Made by a program: the position numbers and the translations under genes. DNA of 64,000 bases, from positions 1-64,000 of the forward strand of contig VJZX01000007.1 of NCBI GenBank assembly GCA_009663185.1, given 5' to 3'. Each line of letters starts with the position of its first letter. The stretch's first letter is position 1. Positions 3,534 through 62,799 of the stretch are shown piece after piece. Source of the DNA: Isoptericola halalbus. GTDB taxonomy: Bacteria; Actinomycetota; Actinomycetes; Actinomycetales; Cellulomonadaceae. The notes under the pieces were generated by a model. It did not search any database. It had not been told where the DNA came from and worked only from the letters and a program-made list of their open reading frames with translations.

Positions 3534-3758
3534 CGCGGGCCAGGATACGTGCGGCCTGGGATGACACGACACTGTGACCAAAACCTCAGGGTTCACACCG
3601 GAGAAACTTCGCCGTAACCCCTTGTGCGCCGCTTCACGAGGCGTCACCCTGGGAGGCAGATTCTGTTAATCCCTGAACGATCCGACCTCGGACGGGCGTG
3701 CCCTCGTGCGCCCTCGGCTCCGGCCCCGAGGTACGCGACGATGACCGAGGAGACTGAC

Positions 3759-4007
3759 ATGGACTGGCGCCACAAGGCCGCCTGCCTCGACGAGGACCCG
3801 GAACTCTTCTTCCCGATCGGCAACACCGGCCCGGCCCTGCTGCAGATCGAGGAGGCGAAGGCCGTCTGCCGACGGTGCGAGGTCGTCGACACCTGCCTGA
3901 AGTGGGCCATCGAGTCCGGGCAGGACGCCGGCGTGTGGGGTGGCATGAGCGAGGACGAGCGCCGCGCACTCAAGCGCCGCACCGCGCGCGCCCGCCGCGC
4001 CGGCTGA
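3759..4007 (+). CDS. whiB1: WhiB-family iron-sulfur transcription factor (WhiB1/WblE)
   Basis: WhiB proteins hold a [4Fe-4S] cluster, sense NO and redox state, and bind the primary sigma factor. This one has 82 residues from ATG 3759, chosen because GAGGAG lies six bases upstream and because the WhiB1/WblE group begins MDWR. An in-frame ATG at 3741 would add six residues. The four cluster cysteines are C9, C37, C40 and C46, the WhiB1 spacing. The G-V-W-G-G turn and a basic C-terminus (RRALKRRTARARRAG) for DNA binding are present. The gene converges on pdtaS, the same order as Rv3219 (whiB1) and Rv3220c (pdtaS) in M. tuberculosis. A 114-bp palindrome fills the space between them. Confidence 0.95.
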   Translation: MDWRHKAACLDEDPELFFPIGNTGPALLQIEEAKAVCRRCEVVDTCLKWAIESGQDAGVWGGMSEDERRALKRRTARARRAG

Positions 4008-4017
4008 CGCCGGGTGT

Positions 4018-4148
4018 CGCCGAGGTAGAAGAGGATCCGGCGACGTAGAACGTCGGAACGCCCCGCCCGCTCACGTGAGTGGGCGGGGCGTTCCGACGTT
4101 CTACGTCGCCGGATCCTCTTCTACCTCGGCGGGCGCGGTTCTACCTCG
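4018..4148. repeat. 114-bp near-perfect palindrome and 20-nt phased CGAGGTAGAA array (locus A)
   Basis: Positions 4018-4074 and 4075-4131 are inverted copies with no loop (centre TCAC|GTGA) and only one G:T mismatch seen, so 57-bp arms. Within it are units CGAGGTAGAA at 4021 and CGACGTAGAA at 4041. On the other arm TTCTACGTCG is at 4099, TTCTACCTCG at 4119, and a further unit at 4139 lies beyond the palindrome. Units within an arm are exactly 20 nt apart. The last unit contains the pdtaS stop codon (CTA on this strand, 4141-4143). It lies between the convergent genes whiB1 and pdtaS and probably acts as a bidirectional terminator. There is no clear U-tract. Confidence 0.9.
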
Positions 4149-5628
4149 GCGGCTGGCCGTCGCGCAGCTCGGCCTCGATCACAACCTGCGTCCCACCGCC
4201 GTCGCGCGGCTCCCACCGGATCTTCCCGCCGAGCTCGTTCGCGACGAGCGTCTGCACGATCTGCGACCCGAGCCCGCTCCGCGAGGCGCGGCCGAGCACG
4301 TCGATGCCCGCAGCCATGCCCACGCCGTCGTCGGAGACGACGACCCGCAACGACGACCCTTCGCGCTGCACGTCGATCGCCACGGTTCCGGCCTCGCGGC
4401 CCGGGAACGCGTGCTCGACGGCGTTGGTCACCAGCTCGGTGAGCACGAGCGCGAGCGGGGTCGCGTCCTGTGCGGGCACCAGCCCGAACGAGCCGGTCTG
4501 CTGCGTCCGCACCCGCGTGGCCGTCGACGCGACGTCGGCCGCTAGCCGCAGCGCCCGGCGCAGCATGTCATCGAGCTCGACCTGCTCGTCGAGCGTCTGC
4601 GAGAGCGACTCGTGCACGAGCGAGATCGTCGCCACGCGCCGCATGGCCTCCTCGAGCGCGGCGCGTGCCTCGGGCACGTCCATGCGCCGAGCCTGGAGGC
4701 GCAGGAGCGCGGCGACGGTCGCGAGGTTGTTCTTGACGCGGTGGTGGATCTCGCGGATCGTCGCGTCCTTCGTCATGAGCTCGCGCTCGCGGCGGCGCAG
4801 CTCCGACACGTCGCGGCACAGCAGGACCGCGCCGATGCGCTGCCCGTGGTCCGTCAACGGAAGGGCGCGCAGCGAGAGCGACACACCGGCGGCCTCGACG
4901 TCCGTGCGCCACGGCGCGCGACCCATGACGACGAGCGGGAGCGACTCGTCCACCGTGCTCTGATGCTCGACGAGGTCGGCCGTCACCTCGATGAGGGACT
5001 GCCCGACGAGCGGTCCGATCACGCCCAGCCGGTGGAAGCACGACAGCGCGTTGGGGCTCGCGTAGAGCACCTCGCCCTCCGAGTTGAGCCGGATGAGACC
5101 GTCACCGACACGCGGGGCTCCACGCCGCGGTCCCGTCGCCGCGTTGGGCGCGGGGTACTCGCCGCGCGAGATCATCGCGAGCAGGTCGTCGGCCGCCTCG
5201 ACGTAGTTGAGCTCGAGCCGGCTCGGGGTGCGCCCCGACCCCAGGTTGGTCTGCCGCGCGACGACGGCGACGGGCCGCCCCTGGTGCACCACCGGCAAGG
5301 CCTCCTCGCGCACCGCGTAGGCGCCGAACCAGCGCGGCTCGCGCGAGCGCTGCGAGCGGCGCTCGGCCAGCGCCGCCGCGAGCTGCGGCCGCTGCCCCTC
5401 GGGGGCGGGCGACCCGACGATGTCGTCGTAGTGGACCGTGGCGCCCGTGCTCGGCCTGCACTGCGCGATGGCGACAAAGGAGCCGTCGGCGGTCGGCAGC
5501 CACAGCACGAGGTCGGCGAACGCCAGGTCGGAGACGACCTGCCAGTCACCGACGAGCAGGTGCAGCCACTCGACGTCGGCCGACGAGAGGTCGGCGTGCT
5601 GGGCGATCAGGTCACTCATGGCGGACAC
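4141..5628 (-). CDS. pdtaS: Sensor histidine kinase PdtaS
   Basis: This is a soluble two-component histidine kinase of the HisKA_2/HWE-like group. It phosphorylates the antiterminator response regulator PdtaR in relatives. It has 495 residues, close to the M. tuberculosis protein. An N-terminal GAF-like domain (about 1-155) is followed by a PAS domain (about 170-280), then the dimerisation motif EIHHRVKNN with the phosphoacceptor at H295, and an HATPase domain with N-box (LTELVTNAVEHAF) and glycine-rich DDGVGM. No membrane segment is seen. The last codon before the TAG stop is an Arg, and that CCG-AGG-TAG end is part of the palindromic array. PdtaR is not in the window. The gene is divergent from the DUF2505 gene, 40 bp away. 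Confidence 0.95.
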   Translation of the reverse strand: MSAMSDLIAQHADLSSADVEWLHLLVGDWQVVSDLAFADLVLWLPTADGSFVAIAQCRPSTGATVHYDDIVGSPAPEGQRPQLAAALAERRSQRSREPRWFGAYAVREEALPVVHQGRPVAVVARQTNLGSGRTPSRLELNYVEAADDLLAMISRGEYPAPNAATGPRRGAPRVGDGLIRLNSEGEVLYASPNALSCFHRLGVIGPLVGQSLIEVTADLVEHQSTVDESLPLVVMGRAPWRTDVEAAGVSLSLRALPLTDHGQRIGAVLLCRDVSELRRRERELMTKDATIREIHHRVKNNLATVAALLRLQARRMDVPEARAALEEAMRRVATISLVHESLSQTLDEQVELDDMLRRALRLAADVASTATRVRTQQTGSFGLVPAQDATPLALVLTELVTNAVEHAFPGREAGTVAIDVQREGSSLRVVVSDDGVGMAAGIDVLGRASRSGLGSQIVQTLVANELGGKIRWEPRDGGGTQVVIEAELRDGQPPR

Positions 5629-28559: not shown

Positions 28560-29339
28560 GTGTCAGCAGCCGCAGAGCGCGCCGGTCGGCCGGACGACCG
28601 CGGCGCGGCCCGCGAGGTCGTCGCCGACGCCAAGGGCGCCATGAGCGGGGCGCGCGAGGCCGTGTCCGACGTCGTGCAGACCGTGTCCGTGGCCGCCGCG
28701 CAGCAGGCCGCACGGCTCAAGCCGCGCCTGCGCGGCTGGATCCACGCCGTGACCGCACCGCTCGCGCTCGCCGCCGCGGTCGTGCTGGTCGTCCTCGCAC
28801 CGCCCGTGGCCGGCAAGGTGGCCGCAGCCGTGTTCGGGCTGAGCGCGGTGATGCTCTTCGGCACGAGCGCCGTCTACCACCGCGGCACGTGGTCCCCCCG
28901 CGTCGCCGCCGCGCTGCGGCGCCTGGACCACTCGAACATCTTCCTCATCATCGCGGGCACGTACACCCCGCTCGCCGTCGTGCTGCTCGACCAGCGCAGC
29001 GCGACCATCCTGCTGTCCATCGTGTGGGGCGGTGCCGTCGTGGGGCTGCTCGCCCGCGTGCTGTGGATGCACGCGCCGCGGTGGGTCTACGTGCCGGTGT
29101 ACGTGGCGCTCGGGTGGGTTGCCGTCGCCTACATGGGGCAGTTCGCGGCCACGGGCGGGCTCGCCGTCGTGTGGCTCGTCGTCGCGGGCGGGCTGGCGTA
29201 CACGCTCGGCGCGATCGTCTACGGCACGAAGTTCCCCGACCCCTCGCCCCGCTGGTTCGGCTTCCACGAGATCTTCCACGCGTTGACGGTGGTCGGGTTC
29301 TCGTGCCACACCGTCGCGATCTTCCTCGCCACCCTCTGA
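28560..29339 (+). CDS. Hemolysin III / PAQR-family membrane protein
   Basis: This protein has 259 residues from GTG 28560 with GAGGAG upstream. A 55-residue Ala-rich, charged N-terminus precedes seven membrane segments. The PAQR/HlyIII signature residues are present: S and H in GTSAVYHRGTW, the LRRLDHSNIFLIIAGTYTP block and the double-His end HEIFHALTVVGFSCHTVAI, which in this family bind zinc and suggest a hydrolase (ceramidase-like) activity. It does not need to be haemolytic. The region matches Rv1085c next to Rv1086. A phased stop-array lies between it and the convergent nitrilase gene. Confidence 0.92.
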   Translation: MSAAAERAGRPDDRGAAREVVADAKGAMSGAREAVSDVVQTVSVAAAQQAARLKPRLRGWIHAVTAPLALAAAVVLVVLAPPVAGKVAAAVFGLSAVMLFGTSAVYHRGTWSPRVAAALRRLDHSNIFLIIAGTYTPLAVVLLDQRSATILLSIVWGGAVVGLLARVLWMHAPRWVYVPVYVALGWVAVAYMGQFAATGGLAVVWLVVAGGLAYTLGAIVYGTKFPDPSPRWFGFHEIFHALTVVGFSCHTVAIFLATL

Positions 29340-29358: not shown

Positions 29359-29470
29359 CGAGGTAGAAGCGATCGCCGCGAGGTAGAAGAACCTCGGGCG
29401 AGGTAGAACGCCACGACCTCCTCTCTCTCGCCGGATCTCGTTCTACCTCGCGGGGCCTGGTTCTACCCCG
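29359..29470. repeat. 20-nt phased CGAGGTAGAA inverted array (locus B)
   Basis: CGAGGTAGAA occurs at 29359, 29379 and 29399. The complement follows at 29421 (degenerate, CTCTCTCTCG), 29441 (TTCTACCTCG) and 29461 (TTCTACCCCG). All neighbouring units within an arm are exactly 20 nt apart. The unit at 29441 gives the nitrilase its TAG stop, and the unit at 29461 lies in its coding sequence. It fills the convergent hlyIII/nitrilase junction. Confidence 0.9.
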
Positions 29471-30282
29471 CGGGGGACGACGACGTAGCGCCGGTTGGCG
29501 AGCGACGGGTTGCTCTCGCGCACGGCCGCGAGCGGCGTCGGGTCGAGGTCGACCGTCCGGTACTCGGGCGCCTCGCCGAACTCGAGGCCGACCACGCCGT
29601 CTGGCCCGACGAGCGTCGACCGGCCCGTGACCCCGTTGCCGGCCATCCCGACGCCGAGAGCCACGACGGTGTTCTCGATCGCGCGCGCCTGCAGCAGCGT
29701 GCGCCAGTGCTCGGGCTTGAGCGGCCCGGCGACCCAGGCCGCGGGCACGACGAGCACGTCGGCGCCGGCGTCGACCACACGGCGCGCGGACTCGGGGAAC
29801 CGCAGGTCGTAGCACGTGATGACGCCGAACGTGAGGTCGCCGACGCGCATCGTCAGGGGCGGGGCGTCGGCCGGACCGGGCTCGAGCAGGTCGGACTCGC
29901 GGAAGCCGAACGCGTCGTAGAGGTGCACCTTGCGGTAGACCCCGGCCAGCCCGCCCTCGGCGTCGACACCCACGACGGCGTTCACCGCGCGATGCCGCCC
30001 GGTCGACCCGACCGTGCCGCTGCCCGGGAGCGTCGTGCCTGCGATCACCGCGACGCCGCGCTCCCGCGCGTGGCGGCGCAGCGCGGTCACGAACGGCCCG
30101 TCCAGCGGCTCGGCGTGCTCCGAGCCGACCCCGTGGCGGTGGTAGCCCGAGCTGTACTCGGGCAGGATCAGCAGGTCCGAGCGCACCCGGGCCGCGGCGC
30201 CGAAGGCGTCGGCCACCATCGCGAGGTTGGCGGCGTGGTCGTCCGCGACCTCGACCTGGCCGACCGTGACTCGCACGGTCAT
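29443..30282 (-). CDS. Carbon-nitrogen hydrolase (nitrilase superfamily)
   Basis: This is an amidase-type enzyme with the Glu-Lys-Cys triad: E42 in LPEYSSG, K118 in YRKVHLYD and C157 in TCYDLRFPE. It has 279 residues from ATG 30282. The motifs fit the Nit/omega-amidase-like branch; the substrate is unknown. It overlaps the upstream small membrane gene by four bases and belongs to the mca operon, so a role in amide-containing thiol or adduct metabolism is possible but unproven. Its last residues (RGVEPGPAR) and TAG are encoded by the phased array of locus B. Confidence 0.9.
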   Translation of the reverse strand: MTVRVTVGQVEVADDHAANLAMVADAFGAAARVRSDLLILPEYSSGYHRHGVGSEHAEPLDGPFVTALRRHARERGVAVIAGTTLPGSGTVGSTGRHRAVNAVVGVDAEGGLAGVYRKVHLYDAFGFRESDLLEPGPADAPPLTMRVGDLTFGVITCYDLRFPESARRVVDAGADVLVVPAAWVAGPLKPEHWRTLLQARAIENTVVALGVGMAGNGVTGRSTLVGPDGVVGLEFGEAPEYRTVDLDPTPLAAVRESNPSLANRRYVVVPRGVEPGPAR

Positions 30283-58803: not shown

Positions 58804-59664
58804 ATGACACAGAGCCTGAGCTTCCTCGACCGCCCCGAGGGGCGCCTCGCCTACACCGACTCCGGCTCCGGGCCGCTCGTCGTCGCCGTGCCCGGGATGG
58901 GTGACCTGCGCTCGACCTACGACGATGTCGCACCGGCGCTCGTCGCGGCCGGCTACCGCGTCGTGGTCACCGACCTGCGCGGCCACGGCGACTCCTCGAC
59001 GACGTTCACCACCCACGGCGACGACGCGACCGGCGCCGACCTGCTCGCGCTCGTCCAGCATCTCGGCGCGGGCCCGGCGGTGCTCCTGGGGAGCTCGATG
59101 GGCGGGTCGGCAGCCGCGTGGGCCGCCGCCGAACGGCCCGACCTGGTCCGAGGGCTGGTTCTGCTCGACCCCCTGCTGCGCGACCCCGCGTCGCCCGCGC
59201 AGCAACGGTTCCTGCGGATCGTCTACCGCATGCTGCTGGCACGCCCCTGGGGTGCGGCGTTCTGGGCCGCCTACTACTCCTCGATCTGCAAGGGCCGTCG
59301 CTCGCCGCGCCACGCCGAGCACGTCGCGGCCGTGCGCGCGTCGTTGCGCGACCGCGACCGCCTGCGGTCGTTCCGGGACCTCGCCCTGGCGCTCGACCAC
59401 GGCGTGGTCGAACGGCGCCTCGACGCGGTGCAAGCGCCGGCGCTCGTCGTCGTCGGCTCGCTCGACCCCGACTACCGGGACCCGGCCGCCGAGCTCGCGT
59501 GGATGCGGGACGCGATCGGGGCGCGTGGCCTGCTCGTGGACGGCGTGGGCCACTACCCGCATCACCAGGCGCCCGACGTCGTCCTGCCCGCCGTGCTCGA
59601 CTTCCTCGCCGGCCTGCCCGCGGCACACGGCGAGGACCAGGGCGAGGAGGACGCGCGTGCCTAG
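58804..59664 (+). CDS. Alpha/beta-hydrolase
   Basis: This protein has 286 residues from ATG 58804. It has the classic fold and triad: serine in the elbow GSSMGGS, Asp in SLDPDYRDP and His in GVGHYPHHQ. The oxyanion region is VPGMGDLRSTYDDV. There is no signal peptide. The C-terminus (GEDQGEEDARA) overlaps the following TetR gene by eight bases. It is likely an esterase or epoxide-hydrolase-type detoxification enzyme under TetR control; the substrate is unknown. Confidence 0.9.
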   Translation: MTQSLSFLDRPEGRLAYTDSGSGPLVVAVPGMGDLRSTYDDVAPALVAAGYRVVVTDLRGHGDSSTTFTTHGDDATGADLLALVQHLGAGPAVLLGSSMGGSAAAWAAAERPDLVRGLVLLDPLLRDPASPAQQRFLRIVYRMLLARPWGAAFWAAYYSSICKGRRSPRHAEHVAAVRASLRDRDRLRSFRDLALALDHGVVERRLDAVQAPALVVVGSLDPDYRDPAAELAWMRDAIGARGLLVDGVGHYPHHQAPDVVLPAVLDFLAGLPAAHGEDQGEEDARA

Positions 59665-60283
59665 GGCCGGCCTGACGCGCGAGGCCGTCGTTCGCCTGGC
59701 GCTCGAGGTGGTCGACGACGGCGGGCCGGACGGCTTCGCGCAGCTCACCCTTGCGAAGGTCGCGTCCCGGGCCGGCGTCGCCACCCCGAGTCTGTACAAG
59801 CACGTCGGGTCGCTCGCGGCGCTGCGTCGGGAGGTGTCGGTCGTCGCGGTGCGAGAGCTCACGACGGCGGGTGCTGCCGCCACGGTCGGGCGCTCGGGCG
59901 CCGACGCGGTGCGCGCGCTGGCCCACGCCTGGCGGGGCTACGCCGTCGCGCAGCCGGGCCGCTACGCCGCGACACAGGTGGGCCCTGACCCCGACGATCC
60001 TTCGGCGGCCGAGCATCGCCAGGCCGCCGCCGAGAGCGTGCAGGTCGCCGCGGCCGTACTGCGCGGATTCGCGCTGCCCGACGAGCGTCTCGTCGACGCA
60101 GTCCGCGCCGCGCGGTCCGCGATCCACGGGTTCGTGATGCTCGAGCTCGGCGGAGGGTTCCGGCTCCCCCAGGACCTCGACCGCAGCTTCGGCGTGCTCA
60201 TCGACATGCTCGTCGCCGGCGTCACCGCGCTCGGGGAGGGCCGACCGACTCTTCCCGAGGTAGAACAACTCTCGCCGAGGTAG
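59657..60283 (+). CDS. TetR-family regulator with WHG-type C-terminal domain
   Basis: This protein has 208 residues from GTG 59657, preceded by GAGGAGG and overlapping the hydrolase gene by eight bases. The N-terminal helix-turn-helix is TLAKVASRAGVATPSLYKHV. The C-terminal domain with a conserved IHGFVMLELGGGF belongs to the TetR_C_33/WHG group. It probably binds GCTAATAGCATTAGC upstream of the operon. Its last ten codons and TAG stop are made of phased array units (locus C), so the coding end has fused with the repeat. Confidence 0.9.
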   Translation: MPRAGLTREAVVRLALEVVDDGGPDGFAQLTLAKVASRAGVATPSLYKHVGSLAALRREVSVVAVRELTTAGAAATVGRSGADAVRALAHAWRGYAVAQPGRYAATQVGPDPDDPSAAEHRQAAAESVQVAAAVLRGFALPDERLVDAVRAARSAIHGFVMLELGGGFRLPQDLDRSFGVLIDMLVAGVTALGEGRPTLPEVEQLSPR

Positions 60284-60365
60284 AACAACTTTCGCCGAGG
60301 TAGAAGCCCAGACGCTTCTACCTCGTGCGATGGCGTTCTACCTCGCGCGATTTCGTTCTATCTCG
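60256..60365. repeat. 20-nt phased CGAGGTAGAA inverted array (locus C)
   Basis: This is the most regular copy. CGAGGTAGAA is at 60256, 60276 and 60296; the complement TTCTACCTCG is at 60316 and 60336, and TTCTATCTCG at 60356. All six units, including across the centre, are exactly 20 nt apart, with 10 variable bases between. The TetR stop codon is TAG 60281-60283 in unit 2. It lies between convergent tetR and cbs. Confidence 0.95.
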
Positions 60366-60385: not shown

Positions 60386-61792
60386 TCAGTGGGCCAGGTA
60401 CCCGAGCAGGTCGTGGCGCGTGAGCACGCCGACCGGTTCTCCGCCCTCGACGACGAGCAGCGCGTCGGCGCCGTGCAGCGCGGCGCGCACCGCCTCGAGC
60501 CCTTCGCCGACCCCCACGAGCGGGAACCGCTCGGCCATGTGGTCGGCGACGCGGTCGGCGAGCTTGGCCTTGCCGGAGAACACGACGTCGAGCAGCTCGC
60601 GCTCGCTCACCGCACCGGCGACCTCCCCGATCTTGACGGGCGGCTCTGCGACGACCACGGGCATCTGCGAGACGCCGTACTCGTGCAGGATCTCGATCGC
60701 GTCGCGCAGCGTCTCGTTGGGGTGGGTGTGCACGAGGTCGGGCATCGTGCCCGTCTTGCCGCGCAGGATGTCGCCCGCAGTGATCTCGGCGTCGGCGTCG
60801 AGGAAGCCGTACGAGCGCATCCACGCGTCGGAGAAGATCTTCGACATGTAGCCCCGCCCGGAGTCCGGCAGCAGCACGACGATCACGGCCTTCGACGCAG
60901 CGGCCGGGTCGGAGTCCTCGAGGCGCCGCGCGAGCCGCAGTGCCGCCTGGACGGCCATGCCGCACGAGCCACCCACGAGCAGCGCCTCCTCGCGTGCGAG
61001 GCGCCGCGTCATGGCGAACGAGTCCGCGTCGGTCACGGGGATGACCTCGTCCGGCACGCTCGGGTCGTAGGCGCGCGGCCAGAAGTCCTCGCCCACTCCC
61101 TCCACGAGGTACGGCCGGCCGTCGCCACCCGAGTAGACCGATCCCGCCGGGTCCGCACCGATGATCCGGACCGGGCCGCCGTCGTCGGGCGAGCGGTCAG
61201 CAGAGACCTCCTTGAGGTAGCGGCCCGCGCCCGTGATCGTGCCGCCCGTGCCCACGCCGGCGACGAAGTGAGTCACCCTGCCGTCGGTGTCCTCCCACAC
61301 CTCGGGCCCGGTGGACTCGAAGTGCGACGCCGGCCCGTTGGGGTTCGAGTACTGGTCCGGCTTCCACGCGCCCTCGGTCTCGGCGACGATCCGGTCGGAG
61401 ACCGAGTAGTACGAGTTCGGGTGGTCCGGCGGCACGGCCGTCGGCGTCACGACGACGCGCGCCCCGTACGCCGCGAGGACGTCCCGCTTGTCCTTGCTGA
61501 CCTTGTCGGGGCAGACGAACACGCACTCGTAGCCCTTGCGCTGGGCGACGAGCGCGAGGCCGACGCCGGTGTTGCCGCTCGTCGGCTCGACGATCGTGCC
61601 ACCGGGCTTCAGCTGGCCCGACTCCTCGGCGGCCTCGACCATCTTGAGCGCGATGCGGTCCTTCACGGAGCCGCCAGGGTTGAAGTACTCGACCTTCGCG
61701 AGGATCGTCGCGGACAGGCCCTCGGTCACCCGGCTCAGGCGGACCAGGGGTGTTCGGCCCACGAGCTCGGAGATGTGCTCGGCGTATCGCAT
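60386..61792 (-). CDS. cbs: Cystathionine beta-synthase
   Basis: This PLP enzyme condenses serine with homocysteine to cystathionine (reverse transsulfuration). It has 468 residues from ATG 61792. The PLP lysine is K44 in GGSVKDRIA, with EPTSGNTGVGLAL and the phosphate loop GVGTGGTITG. Two C-terminal CBS repeats (about 335-468; HTHPNETLRDAIEILHEYGV, FPLVGVGEGLEAVRAAL) bind regulatory ligands. There is no heme-binding N-terminus. In M. tuberculosis cbs (Rv1077) lies near metB, whereas here it is 23 kb away. Phased arrays flank the gene at both ends. Confidence 0.95.
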   Translation of the reverse strand: MRYAEHISELVGRTPLVRLSRVTEGLSATILAKVEYFNPGGSVKDRIALKMVEAAEESGQLKPGGTIVEPTSGNTGVGLALVAQRKGYECVFVCPDKVSKDKRDVLAAYGARVVVTPTAVPPDHPNSYYSVSDRIVAETEGAWKPDQYSNPNGPASHFESTGPEVWEDTDGRVTHFVAGVGTGGTITGAGRYLKEVSADRSPDDGGPVRIIGADPAGSVYSGGDGRPYLVEGVGEDFWPRAYDPSVPDEVIPVTDADSFAMTRRLAREEALLVGGSCGMAVQAALRLARRLEDSDPAAASKAVIVVLLPDSGRGYMSKIFSDAWMRSYGFLDADAEITAGDILRGKTGTMPDLVHTHPNETLRDAIEILHEYGVSQMPVVVAEPPVKIGEVAGAVSERELLDVVFSGKAKLADRVADHMAERFPLVGVGEGLEAVRAALHGADALLVVEGGEPVGVLTRHDLLGYLAH

Positions 61793-61829: not shown

Positions 61830-61938
61830 CGAGGTAGAAAGAGTTCCGGCGAGGTAGAACGCATTCGCGTTCTACCTCGCCGGATCTTCTTCTACCGCGG
61901 CGCGAGTGGTTCTACCTCGGCGGGAGTGGTCTACCTCG
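61830..61938. repeat. 20-nt phased CGAGGTAGAA inverted array (locus D)
   Basis: CGAGGTAGAA is at 61830 and 61850; complementary units are at 61870 (TTCTACCTCG), 61890 (TTCTACCGCG) and 61910 (TTCTACCTCG), and a one-base-shortened unit ends at 61938. The period is 20 nt, including across the centre. Unlike the other loci it lies between two genes on the same strand: after the BI-1 gene and before cbs. Confidence 0.92.
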
Positions 61939-62799
61939 TCACTCGCTGCTGTTGAAGATCGCGAGCAGGCGGAGGAACTCGAGGTAGAGCCAGACCAGCG
62001 TCACGACCAGGCCGAACGCGGCGGTCCAGGCGTAGCGCGCCGGGACGCCCTGCTCGACGCCGCGCTTGATCGCGTCGAAGTCGACGATGAGGGAGGCGGC
62101 GGCCAGGCCGACGGCGACGAGGCCGATGACGATCCCGAGCGGGCCCTCGCGCATGCCCCAGCCCTGGAGCACGCCCGACCAGGTGAGGACGACGTTGACG
62201 AGCGAGAAGGCCAGGTAGCCGACCAGGGCGATGAGCAGCCAGCGCGTGAACTTCGGCGTGACGCGGACGCGCCCCGACTTGAAGAGGAACAGCGCCGCGG
62301 CGAACGTCGCCATGGTGGCGACGACGGCCTGCAGCACCATGCTTGTGGCCTCCACGCCGGCGATGCTGCCGAACAGCAGGCTGATGCCACCGAGGAAAAC
62401 ACCCTCGGCGACCGCGTAGAGCGTGATGAGCACGGGGCTCGGGTTCTTCTTGAACGCGTTCACGAGGCCGAGCACGAGGCCGACGATCATGCCGAGCGGC
62501 CACAGACCGGGCGCGAAGGTCCACGTCGCGGCCGCGACCACGACCAGCAGGGCGAGCAGCCCGCCGGTCTTGATGATCACGTCGTCGTACGTGAGGCGCT
62601 TGGTGTCGGCGGTCGTCGCCGACGGCGCGTCGTACATGTTCTCGAGCGAGGCGGCGTCGGCGCCTTGCGTGCTCGCCGTGCCGTACTGGCCGTACTGCGG
62701 CTGGCCATACTGCGGCGGCGCCGTCGTGGCACCGCCCCGGCGCGCCGTGCGGCGCGGCTCGCCGAACATGTCGCTGTTCGAGAAGACGGGGTTGCTCAT
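61939..62799 (-). CDS. Bax inhibitor-1/YccA-like membrane protein
   Basis: This protein has 286 residues from ATG 62799. A 60-residue cytoplasmic N-terminus with Tyr/Gln/Gly repeats (QYGQPQYGQYG) precedes seven membrane segments, ending in WLYLEFLRLLAIFNSSE, the BI-1/YccA family C-terminus. The conserved acidic pair is present in LIVDFDAIKRG. Family members are pH-sensitive calcium leak channels or interact with FtsH; the actinobacterial role is unknown. The TGA stop abuts the phased array. It is divergent from an ABC exporter. Confidence 0.9.
   Translation of the reverse strand: MSNPVFSNSDMFGEPRRTARRGGATTAPPQYGQPQYGQYGTASTQGADAASLENMYDAPSATTADTKRLTYDDVIIKTGGLLALLVVVAAATWTFAPGLWPLGMIVGLVLGLVNAFKKNPSPVLITLYAVAEGVFLGGISLLFGSIAGVEATSMVLQAVVATMATFAAALFLFKSGRVRVTPKFTRWLLIALVGYLAFSLVNVVLTWSGVLQGWGMREGPLGIVIGLVAVGLAAASLIVDFDAIKRGVEQGVPARYAWTAAFGLVVTLVWLYLEFLRLLAIFNSSE

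Follow-up and report, generated by a model that had tools for sequence, protein, structure and literature searches.

Phased inverted arrays in the window

The window analysed here is a 64-kb stretch of the Isoptericola halalbus genome (contig VJZX01000007.1). It contains four arrays in which the 10-mer CGAGGTAGAA is repeated at steps of 20 nt and then appears inverted at the same step (Table 1). Genes were called with our own codon-usage scoring script, and the flanking products were named by Pfam. At up to one mismatch, 27 copies of CGAGGTAGAA were found in the window, compared with 1.46 expected (maximum in 100 shuffles: 4), and 22 of the 27 lie in the four arrays. The arrays had been described in an initial annotation of the sequence, and re-reading the units confirmed them with small corrections. 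As reported there, three lie between convergent genes; the fourth (61830) was placed between two minus-strand genes.

Table 1 The four arrays of the window, their units and their flanking genes (plus and minus give orientation; mismatches to CGAGGTAGAA in brackets)
Array	Coordinates	Unit orientation	Unit positions	Left flank	Right flank
1	4021..4148	+ + - - -	4021, 4041 (1 mismatch), 4099 (1 mismatch), 4119, 4139	whiB, 3741-4007, +	PdtaS-type histidine kinase gene, 4141-5619, -
2	29359..29470	+ + + (decayed -) - -	29359, 29379, 29399, 29421, 29441, 29461 (1 mismatch)	HlyIII-family membrane protein gene, 28560-29339, +	carbon-nitrogen hydrolase gene, 29443-30282, -
3	60256..60365	+ + + - - -	60256, 60276, 60296, 60316, 60336, 60356 (1 mismatch); all steps 20 nt	TetR-type regulator gene, 59657-60283, +	cystathionine beta-synthase-like gene (PALP/CBS-domain enzyme), 60386-61792, -
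4	61830..61938	+ + - - - -	61830, 61850, 61870, 61890 (1 mismatch), 61910, 61929 (1 mismatch)	cystathionine beta-synthase-like gene, starts at 61792, -	Bax inhibitor-1-like gene, 61939-62799, ends here, -

Three of the four arrays have a unit whose TAG serves as the stop codon of a flanking gene. The outermost unit of array 1 contains the stop of the PdtaS-type kinase gene, the unit at 29441 in array 2 that of the carbon-nitrogen hydrolase gene, and the second unit of array 3 (60276) that of the TetR gene. Positions 4021-4128 of array 1 form an inverted repeat whose 54-nt arms match at 53/54 positions. In array 4 the innermost units form a hairpin, and the step to the unit at 61929 is 19 nt rather than 20. 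The decayed unit proposed at 29421 indeed matches CGAGGTAGAA at 7/10 bases. The six units at 60256 keep their phase through the centre, all 20 nt apart, as had been noticed. As a general rule, this phase did not hold up: it is kept at 60256 and 61830, it fails at 29359 (42 nt) and 4021 (58 nt), and the centre distance is variable in the genome sample.

Uniform units and locus-specific spacers

The exact 10-mer CGAGGTAGAA occurs 179 times in the whole I. halalbus genome and its reversed control 3 times, and tandem pairs at period 20 number 50 for CGAGGTAGAA and 0 for the reversed control. The unit is near-uniform genome-wide, and most spacers are locus-specific. The ten bases between units had been described as varying; this stands for most spacers, which differ across loci, but the positions near the unit are not fully free. 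In 51 units sampled, the base after the unit was C in 71%, and positions -2 and -1 were C (76%) and G (82%).

Some likeness was found among the spacers. Pairs from different loci at a distance of 0-1 numbered 19 in the I. halalbus set compared with about 7 by column shuffles, and 39 compared with about 14 in a congeneric genome (G001), and this between-locus likeness leaves room for some copying among loci. Spacers of the same arm were also alike, with 6.8/10 in G001 and 5.3 in the I. halalbus sample over a background of about 4.5.

Placement at gene ends

We defined an arm as two or more successive units sharing an orientation, and arms were located in samples of three congeneric genomes: I. 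halalbus (839 kb), G001 (800 kb) and G013 (500 kb). A total of 115 arms were placed, 67 in convergent, 41 in co-directional and 6 in divergent gaps, and 1 was intragenic. The background in the three samples was 1858 gene pairs, 311 of them convergent (17%), 1238 co-directional and 309 divergent. With arms treated as independent, the binomial P was 1e-23 for the convergent excess and 4e-4 for the divergent depletion. Exact units within genes were rare (6/58 in I. halalbus, 11/207 in an 860-kb sample of G001 and 0/117 in G013, 17/382 in total) in samples that are about 90% coding. The initial annotation had proposed looking for a genome-wide excess of the unit and for enrichment at gene ends, and the family shows both (179 vs 3 copies; 67/115 arms convergent).

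The arrays adjoin or include a stop codon and often surround a terminator-like hairpin. For arms at most 40 nt from a stop, the stop was the TAG of the unit itself in 11/23 cases in I. halalbus and 14/41 in G001, TAG being 15% and 13% of all called stops in these genomes. The G013 unit is without TAG; there, 26/27 stop-adjacent arms go with TGA, which is itself 94% of G013 stops, and in 4/27 the stop lies 6 nt inside the arm, with TGA read as the opposite strand of the unit. In the three genome samples, 13/112, 28/142 and 17/71 convergent pairs carry a unit, and because these are few, the arrays are no general terminator.

Step and orientation

Distances between neighbouring units of the same orientation were counted up to 60 nt. 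The step was exactly 20 nt in 39/45 distances in the I. halalbus sample, 213/225 in G001, 104/121 in G013 and 7/7 in G010, and one array in G005 had a step of 22 nt in 6/6. Among distances of 20-21 nt in chosen loci of Cellulosimicrobium-type arrays, 22 of the 60 were 21 nt. Steps of 20, 21 and 22 all correspond to about two turns of B-DNA. The provision of stop codons in all three frames was rejected as the cause of the 20-nt step: it suits 20 and 22 but not the 21 that also occurs in Cellulosimicrobium-type arrays.

Opposite arms within 260 bp of each other followed the order plus then minus in 7/7 cases in I. halalbus and 15/16 in G001. The co-directional gaps hold 18 one-orientation arms without a partner within 300 bp, and single-orientation arms in such gaps were sense in 14/18 (P 0.03, arms again treated as independent). 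In G013 the arm order was mixed (6 '+-', 5 '-+') and 9/27 stop-adjacent arms were oriented opposite to the gene, so the inward polarity is not universal.

Hairpins and spacer pairing

Whole arrays were compared with spacer-permuted versions, and z was negative in 13/14 arrays of I. halalbus (mean -3.8) and 11/11 of G001 (mean -3.4). Single arms folded only slightly better than such controls (mean z -0.7 for 14 I. halalbus arms and -1.25 for 24 G001 arms). The outer spacers of opposite arms were non-complementary in register (4.2/10 vs a background of 4.6 in I. halalbus, 4.4 vs 4.5 in G001), and because arm spacers are not complementary beyond background, the extra fold stability comes from the array centre. 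In compact elements, arm spacers were complementary at 9.1 of 12 positions vs 7.9 in other elements for the Cellulosimicrobium type (n=15, P 0.0004) and at 8.6 vs 7.3 of 12 for Oerskovia flava (n=12, P 0.006), with related elements counted as independent in both. An extended stem through all spacers holds for these compact elements and fails in the I. halalbus and G001 arrays.

Convergent gaps with units had a hairpin mean z of -6.7 (n=10), -8.3 (n=21) and -5.0 (n=9), with fractions of 0.9, 0.9 and 0.89 below -2. Those without units were also hairpin-bearing (mean z -3.8, -4.6 and -5.0), as expected for terminators. Since hairpins occur in gaps with and without units, the hairpin core is general and the phased arms come on top of it.

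Persistence at orthologous gene ends

We compared the gaps between reciprocal best-hit gene neighbours of I. halalbus, G001 and G013, scoring a gap as array-bearing when it had two or more locally spelled units and stratifying by gap type. Shared array sites numbered 10 compared with 3.6 expected (P 7e-7, from three mutually dependent comparisons with genomes in common). One gene end carries an array in all three genomes, either directly behind the TGA stop or overlapping it; there, CGAGGTAGCGC in G001 and CGAGTCAGCGC in G013 take an identical position overlapping the same stop codon. At another, units stand beside a classical hairpin in G001 and G013, and I. halalbus has an array without the hairpin. 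A strong hairpin (z < -2) was present at 2/7 orthologous sites where one partner is without an array; replacement of a terminator by an array is thus seen at few sites. The copy number of units differs between orthologous sites. The site orthologous to array 2 of the window holds a 12-unit array with another spelling in G001, and in three sister species the gene junction of array 4 is occupied by arrays with the spelling CGAGGTAGC- that are longer or were read in part.

Dialects and distribution

The congener genomes were read in part, and the unit was spelled differently among them: CGAGGTAGAAC in I. halalbus, CGAGGTAGCGC in G001, G007 and G015, CGAGGTAGGCAAC in G016 and G017, CGAGTCAGCGC in G013 and G010, CGAGATAGAGAC in G005, and mostly CGAGGTAGTAC in G006 and G008 (one locus each). 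The tetranucleotide GTAG is present in most spellings seen. With a free gap, CGAGNNAG was at least 7 times as frequent as its control in 15/18 congeners, and among the 18 scanned, G003, G009 and G014 had no excess over control; in these three, the array system is apparently dispensable or respelled.

Exact tandem pairs of CGAGGTAGAA were found in 32 stretches only among 84,980 species, a collection from which I. halalbus records may be left out. These were from O. flava (18), Cellulosimicrobium (11), O. rustica (1), a record named Sphaerisporangium cinnabarinum (1) and a Lysobacterales MAG (1). The record of S. cinnabarinum ATCC 31213 (locus L036, QAPD01000033.1) carries a compact Cellulosimicrobium-type element and may be misnamed or contaminated. 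Pairs of CGAGGTAG at period 20 were detected in 35/221 genomes of the family, with no match for the control: 11/18 of the genus of I. halalbus, 16/17 of the Cellulosimicrobium-type genus g8, the O. flava-like G028, 4/7 of g44, and 3 single hits. A tighter pattern, CGAGNNAGNNC at period 20, matched 54/221 genomes, many of them with single hits at control level. The design extends beyond the genome of the window to congeners, Cellulosimicrobium and O. flava, with lineage-specific spellings.

Comparison with known systems

Rfam gave 0 matches within the window at the gathering threshold. The initial annotation knew of no described element of such design; this agrees with Rfam for the window and with the paper titles among the matches listed. 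CRISPR arrays combine repeats of at least 23 nt with spacers of about the same length and with cas genes; judged on repeat dimensions alone, a CRISPR array was rejected, as the whole step here is 20 nt and the conserved part 10-13 nt.

The arrays share a gene-end hairpin, here often at the array centre, with intrinsic bidirectional terminators between convergent genes. They differ from these in having a shared motif, respelled by species, and phased flanking arms; we know of no shared genome-wide motif or phased flanking arrays in ordinary terminators. In eukaryotic rDNA, the Sal boxes for TTF-I repeat a short motif in tandem and in a defined orientation behind the genes, and the bound protein stops the polymerase. 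Oriented tandem short-motif copies downstream of genes are likewise found here, but at many loci rather than at one gene family, in both orientations, and with a protein partner that is only putative.

REP elements have a GTAG tetranucleotide, a unit that is itself a small palindrome and a 3' intergenic location. Like REP and BIME, the arrays are dispersed palindromic repeats in 3' intergenic gaps (67/115 arms convergent, 6/115 divergent) with GTAG in most spellings. Unlike them, they are built of one-orientation tandem arms instead of alternating units, with a fixed 20-bp step and no Y1 transposase in any of the 18 congeners. The REP-associated tyrosine transposase (PF01797) was found in 0/18 genomes of the genus, and 5/14 control genomes were positive. 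A mobile palindromic element, one of the roles first suggested for the arrays, is therefore not supported in its REP/RAYT form.

Interpretation

We consider the arrays to be gene-end boundary elements, read by a trans-acting factor that, with the hairpin, would stop or slow RNA polymerase (probability about 0.4). This is the best explanation and unites two roles listed separately in the initial annotation, the protein-binding array and the terminator. The arrays themselves are established, together with their period, location, orientation and dialects and their retention at the ends of orthologous genes; a trans-acting factor, its binding to DNA and an effect on transcription are inferred. Recognition in trans is suggested because the unit is uniform across loci and the spacers are not, and pairing in cis cannot keep loci alike. 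It is also suggested because copying between loci would carry the spacers too, and the excess of similar spacers is modest. A DNA-bound factor is favoured over an RNA-bound one because the step equals two helical turns, and the post-stop position, mostly sense orientation and core hairpin point to an effect on transcription ends. The putative factor would most likely act to stop or insulate transcription.

In the proposed mechanism, a core hairpin, often a terminator-like stem-loop, has tandem copies of a 10-13 bp motif beside it, on one side or on both. The copies follow each other every 20 bp (every 22 bp in one species), and the direction of an arm is usually that of the gene running into it. 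A candidate sequence-specific factor, most likely a DNA-binding protein, would sit cooperatively on one face of the helix. Together, factor and hairpin would stop or slow RNA polymerase arriving from either direction, and convergent or successive genes would thereby be insulated from each other. Factor and motif would change together between species, giving rise to the dialects.

The arrays might instead be hairpin terminators acting in cis only, as redundant RNA stem-loops in which any left unit pairs with any right unit and no dedicated factor is needed. Whole arrays fold better than their spacer-permuted versions (13/14 and 11/11), arm spacers pair in the Cellulosimicrobium-type and O. flava elements, and the array at 4021 in the window comes close to a perfect palindrome; nevertheless, we find this reading doubtful, given that cis pairing needs neither one genome-wide spelling nor a 20-bp step, that outer spacers are unpaired in register in the I. 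halalbus and G001 arrays, and that 18 one-orientation arms in co-directional gaps lack a partner within 300 bp. It is rather unlikely that the arrays are a selfish or neutral repeat in the form of a dispersed palindrome with local minisatellite growth, tolerated as an element only at gene 3' ends. The likeness of same-arm spacers suggests that arms grow by tandem duplication, unit number differs at orthologous sites, spacers are somewhat alike between loci, and avoidance of harm would give the depletion in genes and divergent gaps. However, within each 20-bp unit roughly one half stays constant and the other varies, with a fixed length across loci and species, and recent copying would have spread the spacers too. 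Array sites also persist between species despite changed spelling, the RAYT transposase was not found, and a scan of viral_contigs with each of two spellings returned 0 stretches, which speaks against phage origin.

Sites that organise the chromosome, where a nucleoid-associated protein or topoisomerase between convergent genes would handle supercoils or fold the chromosome, would account for the convergent-gene preference and for a step of about two helical turns. Gyrase has been proposed to act at BIME-2. We regard this role as quite improbable, as a gyrase-like specificity would presumably stay the same among close relatives, and neither contact with stop codons nor a mostly inward orientation is required by it. 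To our knowledge, terminator-associated repeats with species dialects are known only from the DUS of Neisseriaceae, whose inverted pairs at gene ends can act as terminators. One study (PMC3630211) describes DUS as 10-12 nt motifs conserved within species, with dialects that share a core between species; the arrays likewise have a short species-conserved motif and core-sharing dialects. It is this resemblance of species-specific spellings with a common core to the DUS dialects, as that study (PMC3630211) gives them, that would favour a unit marking the cell's own DNA for natural transformation. DUS, however, reach thousands of copies per genome compared with 179 exact copies in I. halalbus, and the arrays are tandem at a fixed 20-bp step, in an actinobacterial host and almost never inside genes. 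ComEC (PF03772) was found in 15/18 genomes of the genus (fragmented assemblies), with no match in the array-bearing I. halalbus, G006 and G007 but presence in the array-poor G003, G009 and G014, a pattern that lends no support to a link with competence. With hundreds rather than thousands of copies, nearly all outside genes and in tandem arrays, an uptake signal is very improbable. The I. halalbus assembly (100% complete, 110 contigs) has no ComEC match, either by loss or by an assembly gap.

Returning to the boundary elements, we put forward, as possible but more speculative, a version in which a fast-evolving sequence-specific protein would occupy tandem sites in phase at the ends of hundreds of genes, giving a polar stop of transcription. 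Factor and sites would be respelled together at the same loci, and the system would be a bacterial counterpart of the TTF-I terminator arrays. Actinobacterial phased arrays at hundreds of gene ends keep their place while their spelling changes between species, a combination that is hard to explain without a trans reader of the motif, and they offer a natural experiment on the in-place replacement of a genome-wide recognition code. If the candidate factor stops transcription, the arrays would represent a further kind of bacterial terminator; if transcription is not stopped, they would point to a new chromosome-organising or selfish process.

Enclosed genes and other repeats

Inward arms bracket a whole ordinary gene at several loci (L010 657-1530, L011 952-1530, L018 688-1530 and G001 sample S1 389762-390916). 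A mobile element with a cargo gene between its arms was rejected, the enclosed genes being ordinary chromosomal ones as read from their translations (YggS-like, S4-domain, a small membrane protein and nadC).

Other repeats were also observed in the genomes studied. In G239, from genus g10 of the same family, 214 pairs of CGAGNNAGNNC at period 20 were counted with 72 for the reversed control, probably reflecting another repeat family with similar letters. G013 has a second dispersed palindrome of about 100 bp, with arms around CGCGCGTCGTCG, that recurs between the arms of five arrays (H1 112111-112424, 172726-173092, 358430-358832 and 379929-380510; H2 5189-5536; loci L213-L232 and L183-L187) and looks like a repeated terminator or a separate mobile element. 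In Cellulosimicrobium-type genomes (genus g8; L105, L107, L109, L113 and others), there is a second subfamily alongside the compact 20-nt elements; its step is 21 nt and its spacer contains a TGGTC element.
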